Shown: positions 50,177-57,599 of the stretch, one piece after another
Numbering within the stretch: the stretch's first letter is position 1
Layout of the letters: each line of letters begins with the position of its first letter
Source: Verrucomicrobiales bacterium
Lineage (GTDB): Bacteria > Verrucomicrobiota > Verrucomicrobiia > Limisphaerales > UBA11358
Length of the DNA: 64,000 nucleotides
Reading direction: 5' to 3'
Assembly (NCBI GenBank): GCA_028712475.1
Contig: JAQTQB010000002.1
Span: 62,001 to 126,000, forward strand
Translations under genes and position numbers: made by a program
The notes under the pieces: model-generated
Databases searched by the model: none
Seen by the model: only the letters and a program-made list of their open reading frames with translations
Told to the model about the DNA's origin: nothing

Positions 50177-51394
50177 ATGAATCCACTGATGTTGCACGAA
50201 TTCCACCACAGCCTCGGCGCACGGTTTGCGGAACTGAACGGTGCACAGGCCGTCAACGATTATGGCGACTGGCTAGGCGAACACGCCGCGCTGCGTGAAA
50301 CGGCTGGCGTGATTGATTTGAGCTTTCGTTCGCGCCTCTGTCTCGTTGGCGCCGACCGCGCGCGGTTTTTGCACGGACAGGTGACGAACGACGTGAAAAA
50401 ACTCCGCACCGGCGAAGGCTGCTACGCCGCAATCACCACGGCCAAAGGCAAAATGGAAAGCGACCTGAACATTTTTGCGCTCGCGGATGAACTGCTTTTG
50501 GACTTCGAACCGGGCCTGACGGGAAAAATTTCTGCGCGGCTGGAAAAATTCATCGTGGCTGATGACGTGCAGATCGTGGACGCCGCGCCGCATTACGGCC
50601 TGTTGAGCGTGCAAGGGCCGAAGGCGGCGGATGTCATCCGCGCGCTGGGACTGTTTGAAGAAATTCCCACCAAACCGTTCGCCTCCATGAAAATTTCCGA
50701 CGCCACGCTTGGAGAAATTTATCTGATGAACCAGCCGCGCCTCGACTCAAGCTGGTGGGGCGAGACTCCGTCGAGCCCTGATCTTTCTGAAACGGGATCG
50801 AGAGGACTCTCGCCCCACCAAAAAATTGAAGGCTTCGACTTGTTCGTCCCGATCAATTCCCTCGGCGCAGTTGCGGACAAATTGATTGCCGCTGCGAAAG
50901 CGATTGGCGGACGCGCGTGTGGCTGGCAGGCGTTTGAGACCGCGCGCATCGAGGCTGGCATTCCACGGTTTGGTGCGGACATGGACGAGACGAACATCCC
51001 GCTCGAATGCGGCATCGAGAGCCGCGCCGTGACTTACAATAAAGGCTGCTACATCGGGCAAGAAGTCATCAACCGCATCCACAGCGTCGGCCACGTCAAC
51101 CGCGAACTGCGCGGCCTGCGCCTCGCCGATGATTTGAAATCATTGCCCGCGCGCGGCGACAAGCTGTTTCACGCGGGCAAGGAAGTCGGCTATGTGACCA
51201 GCGCGGTGAAATCGCCGTCGCTCAACGCAAATATCGCGCTCGGCTATTTGCGCCGCGAAGCTAATCAAATTGGAAACGAACTGGTGTTGCGCACGGCGGC
51301 GGGCGAAAGTCCGGCGAAAATATCATGTTTCTTGCCTCACGATAGCTTAAAGGTATGCTCGCGTTATGGTCGGTGGTGGTGTGAAAAAATCTGA
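50177..51394 (+). CDS. ygfZ: YgfZ/GcvT-family folate-binding protein
   Basis: FLHGQVTNDVKKLRTGEGCYAAITTAKGKMESDLNIF...KGCYIGQEVINRIHSVGHVNRELRGL. Confidence 0.9.
   Translation: MNPLMLHEFHHSLGARFAELNGAQAVNDYGDWLGEHAALRETAGVIDLSFRSRLCLVGADRARFLHGQVTNDVKKLRTGEGCYAAITTAKGKMESDLNIFALADELLLDFEPGLTGKISARLEKFIVADDVQIVDAAPHYGLLSVQGPKAADVIRALGLFEEIPTKPFASMKISDATLGEIYLMNQPRLDSSWWGETPSSPDLSETGSRGLSPHQKIEGFDLFVPINSLGAVADKLIAAAKAIGGRACGWQAFETARIEAGIPRFGADMDETNIPLECGIESRAVTYNKGCYIGQEVINRIHSVGHVNRELRGLRLADDLKSLPARGDKLFHAGKEVGYVTSAVKSPSLNANIALGYLRREANQIGNELVLRTAAGESPAKISCFLPHDSLKVCSRYGRWWCEKI
50753..50820. repeat. palindromic repeat inserted in frame in ygfZ
   Basis: tggtggggcgagactccgtcgagccc ... gggatcgagaggactctcgccccacca. 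Confidence 0.8.
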
Positions 51395-51516
51395 AACGGA
51401 CTCGATGAAAAATTTCATCGCATCGAATTTGGCGAAAGATTAGAAATAGCTTGGCAACATCAGGCAAACGGTGAGAATTCGAGCAAACGAAGTAAGCTTA
51501 TGGGCTTTCTAACTTT

Positions 51517-52785
51517 ATGGCAGAACCAACTATCATCTGTCCGAAATGTAAAAATGAGATCAAGCTGACGGAATCGTTGGCCGCACCACTCATTGAATCC
51601 ACACGAGTTGATTTTGAGAAGCGGCTGGCACAGAAAGATCTCGATGTTGCCGGACGTGAAAAATCAATTCAAGAACGTGAGGCTGCTCTTTCCAAAGAGA
51701 AAGGCTCGCTCGAAATTCAGGTAAATCAGCGGGTGCAGCAGGAGCGTGGAAAAATTGCTGCCGAAGAAGCCAAAAAAGCCAAGCTTGCCCTATCAAACGA
51801 TATTGATCAAAAAACAAAAGAGGTTGCCGATCTTCAGGAGATTCTAAAACAAAAGGACGCGAAACTAACTGAAGCCCAAAAAACACAAGCCGATTTGCTG
51901 AAACAAAAACGCGAACTCGACGACGCCAAACGCGAACTCGACCTGACTGTTGAGAAACGTATTCAAGAAAGTTTGACCGTGACCCGCCAGCAGGCACGGA
52001 AGGAAGCGGAAGACGAATTGAAGCTTAAAGTATCTGAAAAAGAACAGACAATTTCTTCGATGCAAAAGCAGATTGAAGATTTGAAACGCAGAGCTGAGCA
52101 AGGTTCGCAACAGCTTCAAGGCGAAGTCCAGGAACTTGAACTCGAATCCCTGCTCAAAGCAAAATTTCCGCATGACACGATTGCACCAGTGCCGAAAGGC
52201 GAGCATGGCGGCGACGTTTTGCAGCGGGTTGTCAGTGCGATCGGGCAGAGCAGCGGAACAATTCTTTGGGAATCCAAGCGCACTAAAAATTGGAGCGACA
52301 GTTGGCTGACAAAACTCCGCGATGACCAGCGGACGGCCAAAGCGGAAATTGCCGTTATCATCAGTCAGATGCTTCCCAAGGGCGTTGAAACTTTTGGCTT
52401 GGTGGAAGGTGTTTGGGTTGCGCATCCGCAGGCGGCATTGCCCGTCGCCGTGGCATTGCGCTTTACGCTTATTGAAACTGCTACCGCGCGCGTTGCTTCC
52501 GAGGGACAGCAGACAAAGATGGAATTGGTTTATCAATACCTCACCGGCCCGCGCTTCCGGCAACGGGTGCAAGCCATCGTTGAGGCTTTCAGTTCAATGA
52601 AGGAAGACCTTGATAAAGAAAAAAAGGCCATAACCAAGCAATGGGCAAAGCGTGAGGAGCAAATCGAGCGTGTTATGCAATCCACGGTCGGAATGTATGG
52701 CGATCTGCAAGGCATCGCTGGTAAGACCATCCAGGAAATTGACGGATTGGAAATGAAAGCCCTTGAAGAAGGAGTGCCAAAATGA
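51517..52785 (+). CDS. DUF2130 domain protein (coiled-coil plus PD-(D/E)xK-like region)
   Basis: ICPKCKNEI zinc motif, long coiled coil, LESLLKAKFPHDTIAPVPKGEHGGDVLQRV...GTILWESKRTKNWSDSWLTKLRDDQ. Confidence 0.85.
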   Translation: MAEPTIICPKCKNEIKLTESLAAPLIESTRVDFEKRLAQKDLDVAGREKSIQEREAALSKEKGSLEIQVNQRVQQERGKIAAEEAKKAKLALSNDIDQKTKEVADLQEILKQKDAKLTEAQKTQADLLKQKRELDDAKRELDLTVEKRIQESLTVTRQQARKEAEDELKLKVSEKEQTISSMQKQIEDLKRRAEQGSQQLQGEVQELELESLLKAKFPHDTIAPVPKGEHGGDVLQRVVSAIGQSSGTILWESKRTKNWSDSWLTKLRDDQRTAKAEIAVIISQMLPKGVETFGLVEGVWVAHPQAALPVAVALRFTLIETATARVASEGQQTKMELVYQYLTGPRFRQRVQAIVEAFSSMKEDLDKEKKAITKQWAKREEQIERVMQSTVGMYGDLQGIAGKTIQEIDGLEMKALEEGVPK

Positions 52786-54773
52786 AATTGACGCAGCTGC
52801 GAATTCAGAACTTTCGTTCTTGTCGCGACGTGTCCTTGGAGATCGGGGATATGCAAGCACTGGTCGGGGCAAATAATGCCGGTAAGTCCGCAGTGCTTCG
52901 CGCACTTGATTTTTTATTCAATCCCAGCACAAAGTCTCTCAACGAAGAATCCTTTTGGAACAAAGAAACGACTTTGGAAATCCGCGTTGAAGCACTCTTC
53001 ATGGATCTCAAGGAAAAGGAAAAGGAAGCGCTGGCTGGTTGTTTGAAACCCGACGGAACATTCCACATGGCTCGCTCGGCCAAAATGGTCGTAAAGACCG
53101 GCGAAGATGATGCGGATGATGGCGAAGAAAAAATTGCAATCGGCCAGCACTACAAACAGCCTATTCCAAAACTGGAGTGGCTTCAGGAATCCAAAATCAA
53201 CGGAAAAACAACTGCAGAGTGGTGGAAATCCAGAGACCAATTGGCAGTAAATGGTGTTTCGTTTGCCGCCTCCTGGCCTGCTGATGCGAAGAGACCGGGC
53301 GTTGAAGATTGGAAGGAAAAAGCAAAACAGTTTGCTACCACCAATGCGGCGAACATCCCGATGGATGATGCATGGATTGATAATCCGAAAGGTTACGCAA
53401 ATGTCCTGAAAGCAACGCTGCCATTCTTCATTCTTGTTCCTGCTGTCCGGGATGTCACGGAAGAGTCCAAAGGGACAAAGTCTAGTCCGTTCGGAAAATT
53501 ACTCTTTGCGATTCTCGACACCGTCGCCGCAGAAAAGAAAAAGAAAATCGAACTAATTCTTTCGGAAGTTTCCAAGCAGATGAACCGGCTAGGAGGCACG
53601 AAACGTGTGCCGCTGATCGCTGACACCGAAAATCGGTTGAATAAATTGTTGGGGGATTTCTTTGTCGGCTGCGATTTGGAGATCGAATTTCAAACGCCAA
53701 CTTTGGAGGCTCTTTTGAGCGCGCCGAAACTTTTCATTGATGATGGTTTCAGAAACTCGGTTGAAAACAAAGGACATGGATTACAACGGGCGGTCATCTT
53801 CACGATTTTGAGACGTTACGCCGAGTTTATGACATCCTCACCGGAGGGCAGAAAACGGAATCTGATCCTCGCAGTTGAAGAGCCAGAACTTTACATGCAC
53901 CCCCAAGCGCAACGAACAATTCGACGCGTTTTCCGCAAGATTGCCGTAGGCGACGACCAGATTGTTTTTTCTACGCATTCCTCCTTGTTGGTGGATGTGG
54001 CTAATTTCGACGAAATCATCCGGCTCGAAAGTCGTGTGGAAAAGGTGGGTGGAAAAAAAGTAACCCAAAGCGACGCATGGCAGTTGCCGATGGCGAAAAT
54101 GATGGAGGACTTGGAGGTTCGATTTCCGAAGCTCAAAGGCAAGGTCACGCCGGAATCCGTGCGTGACCGCTATTCGCACGCATACAATCCGCGCCGCAAC
54201 GAGGGCTTCTTTGCATCGAAGATCATCTTGGTCGAAGGGCTTACCGAGGAATACAGCCTTCCGATTTATGCGGATGCGATTGCGGAGTGTGCCTTTGATC
54301 CACAAAACATCAGTGTCGTCGAGTGCGGCGGCAAAGGGGCTATGGATCGACTGTTCAGGATTTTTAATGAGTTGCACATTCCCTGCTACCTGCTGCTGGA
54401 TTTTGACAGCGGAAACGTGGACAAGAATATCATCGAAAAGTCGAAAGAGCTTCTTACATTAGGCGGTGAAGCTCCAAACGAGCCGAAAGGACTCCTCTTG
54501 GCAGATGGCGTAGCGTGTTTTCAAAAAAAATGGGAAACGGACTTACACGGGGAAACCCCTGATGTTGATGCCTTGACGGCTGCGGCTGGAAAGGAACTCG
54601 GTGGCGATGTTGGAAAACCGTTAGTCGCCCGGTATATCGCCCGAAAACTTACGTCTCAAAATCCAGCCATCGTTCCGGCAAGTTTACAAAAAATCATTCA
54701 GAAGGGCGTTGCTGTTACTTGGAAGAAAAGCTGTCTTCAGAAAGCAGCAGCCGATCCGGCTGTGGTGATTTAG
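52782..54773 (+). CDS. OLD-like AAA ATPase with C-terminal TOPRIM
   Basis: Walker A VGANNAGKS, Walker B NLILAVEEPELYMHPQAQRT, TOPRIM KIILVEGLTEEYSLPIYADAI...YLLLDFDSGN. Confidence 0.88.
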   Translation: MKLTQLRIQNFRSCRDVSLEIGDMQALVGANNAGKSAVLRALDFLFNPSTKSLNEESFWNKETTLEIRVEALFMDLKEKEKEALAGCLKPDGTFHMARSAKMVVKTGEDDADDGEEKIAIGQHYKQPIPKLEWLQESKINGKTTAEWWKSRDQLAVNGVSFAASWPADAKRPGVEDWKEKAKQFATTNAANIPMDDAWIDNPKGYANVLKATLPFFILVPAVRDVTEESKGTKSSPFGKLLFAILDTVAAEKKKKIELILSEVSKQMNRLGGTKRVPLIADTENRLNKLLGDFFVGCDLEIEFQTPTLEALLSAPKLFIDDGFRNSVENKGHGLQRAVIFTILRRYAEFMTSSPEGRKRNLILAVEEPELYMHPQAQRTIRRVFRKIAVGDDQIVFSTHSSLLVDVANFDEIIRLESRVEKVGGKKVTQSDAWQLPMAKMMEDLEVRFPKLKGKVTPESVRDRYSHAYNPRRNEGFFASKIILVEGLTEEYSLPIYADAIAECAFDPQNISVVECGGKGAMDRLFRIFNELHIPCYLLLDFDSGNVDKNIIEKSKELLTLGGEAPNEPKGLLLADGVACFQKKWETDLHGETPDVDALTAAAGKELGGDVGKPLVARYIARKLTSQNPAIVPASLQKIIQKGVAVTWKKSCLQKAAADPAVVI

Positions 54774-54780
54774 AACAAAT

Positions 54781-55890
54781 ATGGGAAAACTTCCTGATAA
54801 CTACGATTGGCGTCATTCGCCGGGACATCTATGGTGCTTGCATTGGTTTCGTAATCCCAATGCTGGGAAGTTTTCGGGCTGGGAAGTTGCGGCCAAGGAG
54901 TCGGGACAATTTGCCATCGAGCGGTTCATAAAAGATGGAGCTATAGTCGTGTGCGAGCTGCCAGAGTTGGTTGCCCACAAATTCAAAGTGCCCGAATTAA
55001 AAAAAATATTGCAACGCCATGGTCAAAAAGCGACTGGTAGCAAAACTGAACTCGTGGACTTAGCCTTGTCTGTAGCGAGAGATGAAATGGAGGAAGCAAC
55101 CCGCAAGCTAAAGCTCTACAAATGCACACAATTGGGACTGGATGTTATTGACGAACATGAACGTAATAAAGCTGCGGCGGAAGTGCTTGCACAGAATGAG
55201 TCTCATAAACAATTGTCCGCAGGAAATGCCAAAGAGGCCTACGCAACGTTCGTCGCCTTTCGTCGAAGGTTTTCAGAATATGAATATTCTGGCAGCCCGC
55301 TGGAAGTGGAGCGGTTGCGATCTATTTTCAAAAGTGCACCTAAAGTAATCGGTCATCTTGAAATTGGTGATTGGCGGACTTTGCAAGCCGCCGCCGCTAT
55401 GAAATTGCTTTGGCGAGAGCGTAATGAAACCAGATGGCTATCGGAAACATTTGCCACGCCAATCAATGATAACGCACGGGCTATCCGGCTTCTGATAGCA
55501 AACGCAGAATTCCGCTCACAACTCGCAAATGCTGCACGTTCGTGCAAGAAGGTGAAACTCGTATTTGAACCGGACGACGTTGATCTCTGCGAACAATGCG
55601 CGACGCTCGATGGCAGTGTGCATAAAATTGATAGAGTCCCGGAACTCCCGACGGAACACTGCACAAGTTCGGTTGGGTGCATTTGTCGGTTTGAAGATGC
55701 CGCTGGGCAAGATGAAACAAAAAGCTCTACAATTTCGGTGGTCATGGATACCGAAGCTTATGACTTCCCGAATGATGTCCAAGACGACCCAGTTGCGGTA
55801 TTAAGGCAACTCAAACAGATGCTCGACGAGAATCTTATTGATCAGTCCGAGTATGATGAGAAGAAAAAGGAAATCGTTGCACGGATGTAG
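54781..55890 (+). CDS. SAP-domain/SHOCT-domain protein with Cys/His cluster
   Basis: VAHKFKVPELKKILQRHGQKATGSKTELVDLAL (SAP), CEQCATLDGSVHKI...HCTSSVGCICRF, VAVLRQLKQMLDENLIDQSEYDEKKKEIVARM (SHOCT). Confidence 0.7.
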   Translation: MGKLPDNYDWRHSPGHLWCLHWFRNPNAGKFSGWEVAAKESGQFAIERFIKDGAIVVCELPELVAHKFKVPELKKILQRHGQKATGSKTELVDLALSVARDEMEEATRKLKLYKCTQLGLDVIDEHERNKAAAEVLAQNESHKQLSAGNAKEAYATFVAFRRRFSEYEYSGSPLEVERLRSIFKSAPKVIGHLEIGDWRTLQAAAAMKLLWRERNETRWLSETFATPINDNARAIRLLIANAEFRSQLANAARSCKKVKLVFEPDDVDLCEQCATLDGSVHKIDRVPELPTEHCTSSVGCICRFEDAAGQDETKSSTISVVMDTEAYDFPNDVQDDPVAVLRQLKQMLDENLIDQSEYDEKKKEIVARM

Positions 55891-55902: not shown

Positions 55903-55962
55903 ATGGAACTTCGCCATCTCCGTTATTTTGTCGCCGTGGCTGAAGCAGAAAATCTGACGGAC
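55903..55962 (+). pseudogene. truncated LysR-family 5' end
   Basis: Encodes MELRHLRYFVAVAEAENLTD, near-identical to 56706 MELRHLRYFVAVAEAENVTR. Confidence 0.85.
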
Positions 55963-55964
55963 TT

Positions 55965-56336
55965 TCAAGCCAAAACCAGGCCGTCGGGAAGGAAGGGTTG
56001 AAAATCAGCGGTGTTGCTGGTCGCCAGTTTTGCCCCGCAACGGATGGCCACCGCCGCGATCATGCAATCGGCAAGACTGCGGGAACGGCGGCCAGTCTGA
56101 TTGAACAGGCGCGCAGCCAGCGCGGCATCAGCGGACAAAAACGGTTCGGGATGCAGGAAGATTTGTCGTGCGATGGCTTCGGCGGGTGCATCCAGCGGCC
56201 CGCATAAAAATTCCGCCCAGGCAATGCTGCTGGTGTTGCAGTCTTCGCGTGTCTCTGTCCAGCCCCGGAATCTTTCATGCGCCGCCGAACCGGCCACGAC
56301 GGTTTGAATGAGAAAGTTGGTGTCGAAATGAATCAT
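55965..56336 (-). CDS. PIN-domain (VapC-like) toxin
   Basis: MIHFDTNFLIQTVV...SSIAWAEFLCG...SRSLADCMIAAVAIRCGAKLATSNTADF. Confidence 0.88.
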   Translation of the reverse strand: MIHFDTNFLIQTVVAGSAAHERFRGWTETREDCNTSSIAWAEFLCGPLDAPAEAIARQIFLHPEPFLSADAALAARLFNQTGRRSRSLADCMIAAVAIRCGAKLATSNTADFQPFLPDGLVLA

Positions 56337-56705: not shown

Positions 56706-57599
56706 ATGGAACTCCGCCATCTCCGTTACTTCGTCGCCGTGGCTGAAGCGGAAAATGTCACGCGCGCCGCGCTGAAGCTGCATGTCTCGCAACCGGCCTT
56801 GAGCCGGCAGATCCACGACCTCGAAGATGAAATCGGCTTTCCGCTTTTGGAACGCAGCGCCAAGTCAGTCAGGCTCACGGCCGCCGGGCGGTTTTTTTTG
56901 AACGAAGCCCGCGCCGTGCTGCAACGCGCCGGGGACGCGGTGAAAGCCGCGCGCGCGGTTGCCGGTGGAACACGCGGCGAAATCCATGTCGGCTACGCGC
57001 CATCCATCACCGTGCAGATTCTGCCGCCGACGCTGCGGATTTTTCAGGCGGAATTTCCCGGCGTGAAAGTGGCGTTGCACGATCTGTCCACGGAAGAAAT
57101 GCTGACGCAATTGCGCGTTGGCAAACTGGACGTCGCCCTCGTCGTCCGGCTGCGGGAAAAGGAACTGCGCGGATTGCGTTTTGAAGAACTGGCGCGCTAT
57201 CCCATGTGCGTGGCGGTCGCGCCCGGACACCCGCTTGCGCGCCTGCGCAAAGTCAAACTGGCGGCGATCGCCGATGAACCTTTGATCGGCTATGAGCGGG
57301 AAAATTATCCCGAATATCACGAGCGCCTGGAAAAGTTGTATGGCGAATTTGGCCGGAAACCGCCCGTCGCCGAGGAACACGAAGGCGTGTCCAGCCTCAT
57401 CGCGGCGGTCGAGGCGGGACGCGGCATCGCGCTCGTGCCGGACTGTCTGGCGTGCATGGTCGGCCCGCGATTGAAACTGATTCCGCTGGTTCCAGCCGGG
57501 CCGCCCGTCATCGTCGGTGCGGCGGTTTGCAAAGGGCCGGTTCCAATCACCGTGGAAAAATTCATCGCGGCGGCCCGGCCGAAACCGCGCAAGCCGTAA
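56706..57599 (+). CDS. LysR-family transcriptional regulator
   Basis: MELRHLRYFVAVAEAENVTRAALKLHVSQPALSRQIHDLEDEIGFPLLER. Confidence 0.95.
   Translation: MELRHLRYFVAVAEAENVTRAALKLHVSQPALSRQIHDLEDEIGFPLLERSAKSVRLTAAGRFFLNEARAVLQRAGDAVKAARAVAGGTRGEIHVGYAPSITVQILPPTLRIFQAEFPGVKVALHDLSTEEMLTQLRVGKLDVALVVRLREKELRGLRFEELARYPMCVAVAPGHPLARLRKVKLAAIADEPLIGYERENYPEYHERLEKLYGEFGRKPPVAEEHEGVSSLIAAVEAGRGIALVPDCLACMVGPRLKLIPLVPAGPPVIVGAAVCKGPVPITVEKFIAAARPKPRKP

Follow-up and report, generated by a model that had tools for sequence, protein, structure and literature searches.

Do three closely spaced genes in a low-GC block of a Verrucomicrobiales bacterium encode an undescribed defence system, and which of the three belong to it? 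The genes lie in a 64,000-nucleotide stretch of GenBank assembly GCA_028712475.1 (contig JAQTQB010000002.1, positions 62,001 to 126,000 of the forward strand), referred to here as the window, and all coordinates are positions in it. They code for a DUF2130 protein, an OLD-family protein with ATPase and TOPRIM domains, and a protein with SAP and SHOCT domains. A sequence-only reading of the window had proposed that the trio is a distinct OLD-based system. Comparison with other loci points, with a probability of about 0.6, to a horizontally acquired two-nuclease antiphage module composed of DUF2130 and OLD, which would be one form of a wider architecture in which DUF2130 is joined to exchangeable ATPases. 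Thus, the proposal held for an OLD-based candidate defence unit with a DUF2130 partner, given recurrent adjacency, an intact predicted active site and a defence-rich context, but not for the trio as a unit.

Anatomy of the overlapping gene pair

The three genes are consecutive open reading frames (ORFs), all on the + strand, at 51517-52785, 52782-54773 and 54781-55890. Genes 1 and 2 share a 4-bp ATGA overlap (52782-52785), and genes 2 and 3 are separated by 7 bp, in agreement with the arrangement described in the sequence-only reading. Domains were called with Pfam and defence profiles with PADLOC and PADLOC-DB.

Gene 1 (51517-52785, + strand) encodes a 422-amino-acid protein for which Pfam, AlphaFold and Foldseek together indicate an N-terminal single CPxC motif, a long coiled coil, a PD-(D/E)XK-like core and a helical C-terminus. 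The Pfam family PF09903 (DUF2130) matches residues 169-414 with an E value of 1e-78. In an alignment of 30 homologues, made up of the window protein and loci from the viral-contig collection IMG/VR, the CPxC motif at residues 8-11 was nearly invariant, and G202, E203, E206, G231, D233, E252, K254, T256, K257 and D270 were invariant. A D...ExK-like region that had been noticed from the letters alone therefore contains a conserved predicted active site, formed by D233 and E252-x-K254 (52213-52278, + strand) with E206 upstream. The AlphaFold model built from this alignment had a mean predicted local distance difference test (pLDDT) score of 80, and the core blocks, which hold these residues, mostly scored 93-97. 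Helices at residues 17-149 and 156-216 are followed by strands at 221-224, 234-239 and 245-254, a helix at 262-274 and a strand at 278-283, so that the D...ExK residues are predicted to lie on a core beta-sheet flanked by helices.

The top Foldseek matches of the model were mostly PD-(D/E)XK nucleases (BstEII, SPARDA, DdmD, Bax1, McrBC and MspJI), with weak E values of 0.016 to 0.06, none being below 0.001. The PD-(D/E)XK assignment therefore rests on the fold and the invariant residues together. Searching Protein Data Bank sequences with a DUF2130 profile returned mostly low-scoring hits in helical segments of long proteins, and thus no solved homologue was found; PADLOC-DB gave weak coiled-coil matches but no defence model for DUF2130. 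The protein is thus a predicted coiled-coil nuclease of the PD-(D/E)XK type.

Gene 2 (52782-54773, + strand) encodes a 663-amino-acid OLD-family protein, with Pfam matches to AAA_15 (E = 3e-38) and OLD-like_TOPRIM (E = 3e-19). Among PADLOC profiles Old ranked first (3e-83), followed by GajA (up to 5e-43) and AriA (7e-43), and the closest solved relative was the Class 1 OLD of T. scotoductus (Ts OLD; 6p74, E = 4.5e-26). The Walker and TOPRIM motifs reported earlier could all be located. The N-terminal ATP-binding cassette (ABC) ATPase domain has a Walker A motif, GANNAGKS, at residues 29-36 (52866-52889, + strand), a Walker B motif, EEPE, at residues 366-369 within VEEPELYMHP, and an H-loop, STHSS. 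The C-terminal TOPRIM domain carries candidate metal-binding acidic residues in VEGLTEE (residues 484-490) and DFD (residues 540-542), which span 54231-54407 on the + strand; in the alignment with Ts OLD, DFD falls on D431/D433, and E485/E489 preserve the i/i+4 spacing of E377/D381.

It is possible to sketch how the two proteins might act together. The DUF2130 nuclease would be translationally coupled to the OLD ATPase, and the TOPRIM domain of OLD would serve as the second nuclease. A dimer of the OLD ABC ATPase might recognise a phage-specific DNA state and license cleavage; candidate triggers are DNA ends, intermediates of replication or recombination, and the blocking of a host repair nuclease, as in the case of P2 Old and RecBC. 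DUF2130 may bind and process the same DNA, either by preparing a substrate or signal on which OLD acts or by completing the degradation, and the ATPase partner would supply the specific response. Complex formation, cleavage, the trigger and the antiphage effect are features that we infer for the pair.

Recurrence of the pair and possible exchange of its partner

DUF2130 neighbourhoods were compared within the phylum and in plasmid, E. coli, phage and IMG/VR collections outside it (G and L numbers are genome and locus labels). Direct adjacency of DUF2130 and an OLD-like gene recurs in two further genomes from the phylum. In G599 (L126) DUF2130 and OLD overlap by 4 bp, and type III restriction-modification (R-M) genes were not seen in the neighbourhood; in G013 (L069) DUF2130 precedes an AAA_15 ATPase in which two TOPRIM-like motifs, VEG..D and DRD, are present. 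Outside the phylum, a Citrobacter plasmid and E. coli H6 share the order helicase, DUF4391, OLD, DUF2130, methyltransferase and ResIII; in E. coli ET245 the OLD-DUF2130 pair neighbours a type I R-M system, within an island linked to an integrase and a tRNA; and OLD-DUF2130 pairs are present on IMG/VR contigs L170, L172 and L173. These pairs have OLD first, a 2-bp gap and a DUF2130 protein that is approximately 20-24% identical to that of the window, and thus two DUF2130 clades pair with OLD, one in the reverse gene order of the other. The Citrobacter-type DUF2130 had no match in the phage collection. In the enterobacterial operon (L011 and L089) a DUF4391 gene lies between those for the helicase and for OLD, and its product matched no PADLOC model.

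The junction downstream of DUF2130 is conserved. A 4-bp ATGA or GTGA overlap between the DUF2130 stop codon and the start of the next gene was present in all six ABC-ATPase-type clade-I loci (the window, G013, G207, G289, G120 and G599). Across five of these loci (G120 was not compared) DUF2130 identity is 69-77%, and the genes that follow it are 22-25% identical when the window is compared with G013 and G599, with otherwise no convincing similarity. SIR2 partners begin 18-19 bp downstream of DUF2130, with no overlap. A conserved gene and junction with changing partners suggests partner exchange under constraint, and the overlap with unrelated ATPases suggests a DNA-processing step common to several defence machines.

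A constant upstream protein that is translationally coupled to diverse toxic effectors could also be a restraint or repair factor, shielding the host from its ATPase or nuclease partner in the manner of an antitoxin rather than acting as an effector. The finding that P2 Old kills recBC cells (PMC10568477) fits such a role. However, the nuclease site of DUF2130 is invariant, and lone DUF2130 genes on plasmids and viral contigs have no partner there to restrain, which makes an antitoxin-like function improbable.

DUF2130 matches were found in 20 of 376 sampled genomes of the phylum (28 of 384 in the class). Close relatives, 58-76% identical to the window protein, are in turn found ahead of unrelated partners, such as SMC-like ATPases or SIR2 with HerA, and do so mainly within helicase/type III R-M operons. 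The operon of G013 consists of a DrmD-like helicase, DUF2130, the AAA_15/TOPRIM-like protein, a type III methyltransferase and ResIII. That of G207 is similar, with a PDC-S06-type ATPase as the partner and YhcG in addition, and G289 has an operon of the G013 type that includes Schlafen and a DUF4062 protein and in which the ATPase is SMC-like and related to Ppl/TrlF. G120 combines DUF2130 with an N-terminal OLD/AriA fragment, a split methyltransferase, YhcG and ResIII. G139 encodes DUF2130, SIR2, HerA (the latter two ORFs identified directly with Pfam), a methyltransferase, YhcG and ResIII, and G417 encodes YhcG, DrmD, DUF2130, SIR2 and HerA. DUF2130 lies beside HsdM/S/R in G451 and beside MmeI in G405; outside the phylum it accompanies DUF4297 and HerA in Paraburkholderia and TrlF in Lactococcus. 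The operon at L069, L071, L072, L070 and L074, with a DrmD-like helicase, DUF2130, a variable ATPase or SIR2/HerA, a type III methyltransferase, YhcG or DUF4062, and ResIII, may itself be a distinct multigene defence system.

These operons raise the question of whether the window holds a remnant. DUF2130 could belong to a system of DrmD-like helicase and type III methylase/ResIII, in which the ATPase embedded in the operon serves as an abortive back-up against phages that block restriction, and the window would have lost the R-M part. Four of the six clade-I operons with a partner coupled by 4 bp (G013, G207, G289 and G120) contain a type III methyltransferase and ResIII, and back-up OLD-ABC modules with variable nucleases are known from BREX (PMC12839542). 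However, type III R-M genes were absent from the examined neighbourhood of the pairs in G599, in E. coli ET245, where type I R-M is adjacent, and on the IMG/VR contigs, and DUF2130 occurs with DUF4297-HerA and with TrlF with no R-M in the stretches shown. Loss from a larger R-M operon is therefore an unlikely origin for the window locus.

Because the same subfamily serves SMC-like ATPases and SIR2-HerA as well, the DUF2130 of the proposed two-nuclease module is probably a general DNA-processing adaptor. More tentatively, DUF2130 might serve bacterial immunity as a general nuclease adaptor, coupled through translation to partners from four or more unrelated families of ATPase effectors (OLD, SMC-like PDC-S06, Ppl/TrlF-like, and SIR2- or DUF4297-HerA) and possibly recruited from phage DNA-replication gene sets; the window locus would be a compact OLD-type version. 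No defence role for DUF2130 was found in the literature by title and abstract, a search that left subscription papers and recent preprints largely outside, so that priority cannot be excluded. Given this result and the lack of a PADLOC-DB defence model, DUF2130 is a candidate for a missing marker of defence loci.

A defence homologue was present within 6 kb of DUF2130 at 9 of 13 close-relative loci and at 0 of 20 control stretches from DUF2130-bearing genomes (Fisher P = 1.9e-5), in a comparison with a small control and with a defence query set drawn partly from the same loci, for which self-locus queries were excluded. That limit is one of several points that weigh against the two-nuclease antiphage module, together with the weak Foldseek values given above. 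For the distant clades no enrichment close to defence genes was seen (2 of 14 loci in distant clade I and 1 of 12 in clade II). The nearest OLD relatives of gene 2 in the phylum had no adjacent DUF2130 in the loci examined, and an OLD gene in an E. coli prophage region also has none. On several rhizobial plasmids DUF2130 stands alone, and on viral contigs it has genes for DNA polymerase, exonuclease, helicase and methylase nearby; it thus has uses that are independent of OLD.

Such viral neighbourhoods would be expected if the window genes were DNA-metabolism genes of mobile elements, brought together by chance and with no defence function. The overlap, however, is conserved with different defence ATPases, and the 9-of-13 defence context stands against none among the controls; a non-defence explanation is accordingly the most improbable of those considered. 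As an observation on the viral genes themselves, the clade-I DUF2130 loci L142-L168 (IMG/VR) had genes of those four kinds as the conserved neighbours tested, which suggests a DNA-metabolism role for DUF2130 in phages.

The low-GC block and its third gene

The statement in the sequence-only reading that the genes are lower in guanine-plus-cytosine (GC) content than their flanks was borne out. In 1-kb bins, GC content was 0.48-0.50 from 51 to 56 kb versus 0.55-0.61 in the 45-51 kb and 56-64 kb bins, and the low-GC block that contains the trio is 4.6 kb long. On the left, synteny with seven same-genus genomes runs as far as the end of a GcvT/YgfZ-like ORF, at about 51290-51321, and then breaks, which places the left junction at 51322-51516. 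The C-terminus of that ORF has been replaced in the window; its relatives align up to residues 386-394 of 408. The right junction is marked by a 57-nucleotide 5' stub of a LysR-type gene (55903-55959, + strand), located directly behind the block, five bases past the stop codon region, and 89% identical to the start of an intact LysR gene at 56706. The nine other genomes listed for the genus all lacked DUF2130. The low GC content, the synteny break and this absence indicate that the gene block was probably imported by horizontal acquisition; neither an integrase nor an att site was identified at the island.

The stub and the start of the intact gene (55903-55959 and 56706-56762) form a 57-nucleotide direct repeat, the stub lying 803 bp from the intact gene, and this is a possible recombination scar. 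Between them lies an ORF on the - strand (55965-56336) that reads, by eye, like a candidate PIN-domain VapC toxin.

Gene 3 (54781-55890, + strand) encodes 369 amino acids arranged as SAP, a helical region, a Cys/His cluster and SHOCT. The domains named from the letters alone were recovered: the Pfam match to SAP, a DNA-binding domain, is above its cut-off (E = 4e-6), and that to SHOCT (E = 2e-5, 24.4 bits) is just under the 27-bit cut-off. The cluster, a putative zinc site of the form C-x2-C...C...C-x-C at residues 270-302 (55588-55689, + strand), weakly resembles Phage_Mu_F (Pfam, E = 0.08). PADLOC gave no match. A single-sequence structure model was poor (pLDDT 39) and was not used.

With a DNA-binding domain, a start 7 bp after OLD on the same strand and a place in the same low-GC block, gene 3 could be an essential DNA-binding or membrane-associated sensor of a three-gene system. 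However, searches of 388 genomes of the phylum matched the SHOCT region only; such matches (L002-L010, including L007, which is similar through SHOCT alone) were not counted as relatives. The sole near-full-length relative, on a Marinobacter plasmid (L012:9959-10939), is 32% identical over residues 9-304, keeps the SAP-like region and the Cys/His cluster, lacks SHOCT and has no OLD or DUF2130 nearby. A partial match in an unannotated Neisseria record is also not beside OLD or DUF2130, and gene 3 is absent from the other DUF2130-OLD pairs. In the searched collections the gene 3 body had no relative next to OLD or DUF2130, so that the expectation that the trio would be conserved together failed, and a three-gene system is very unlikely. 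Since the phylum matches are restricted to SHOCT and the Marinobacter relative stands apart from both genes, gene 3, which is nearly unique, was treated as accessory; its distribution suggests a lineage-specific accessory or passenger. Gene 3 and its Marinobacter homologue form a small unnamed family.

Comparison with known OLD and HerA systems

OLD classes are set by genetic context, namely single gene, helicase, retron or PARIS (PMC10568477). Gene 2 resembles the Class 1 proteins P2 Old and T. scotoductus OLD in combining an ABC ATPase with a Class 1-type TOPRIM domain. However, Class 1 OLD is defined as a single gene (PMC10568477), and gene 2 shares 4 bp with DUF2130 on one side and has gene 3 behind it on the other. 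Whether Class 1 OLD alone provides broad antiphage defence was listed as an open question in a 2023 review (PMC10568477), and a recurring nuclease partner offers a direct two-gene test of it.

Gabija (Class 2; GajA and GajB) likewise has an OLD-type ATPase/TOPRIM protein with a partner gene, and GajA profiles match gene 2. The locus differs in that there is no UvrD-like GajB helicase among its ORFs, its neighbours being DUF2130 and SAP-SHOCT, and in that the partner is a predicted PD-(D/E)XK nuclease located upstream rather than downstream. The earlier suggestion that the Gabija helicase had been replaced is thus right about its absence, but DUF2130, which also couples to SMC-like ATPases and SIR2/HerA, is no simple substitute. 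PARIS (Class 4), which has been found embedded within larger defence operons (PMC12839542), is similar in that the AriA profile matches the ATPase domain of gene 2. PARIS has separate AriA and AriB genes, whereas ATPase and TOPRIM are fused in one ORF here and DUF2130 is not AriB. The locus differs from retron-associated Class 3 OLD in having no reverse transcriptase among the three proteins by Pfam, with the neighbouring genes judged from the ORF list alone and with no search for noncoding RNA.

The OLD-ABC back-up modules of BREX and BREX-related systems, which have a variable second nuclease of the HNH, PD-(D/E)XK or PIN type (PMC12839542), share with the window pair the design of an OLD-ABC ATPase plus a second nuclease, but DUF2130 is not named in that study and BREX genes are absent from the window. 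SIR2-HerA and DUF4297-HerA modules have a close DUF2130 partner in G139 and G417 and in Paraburkholderia, respectively; these modules differ from the window pair in using another effector and another ATPase, with no OLD.

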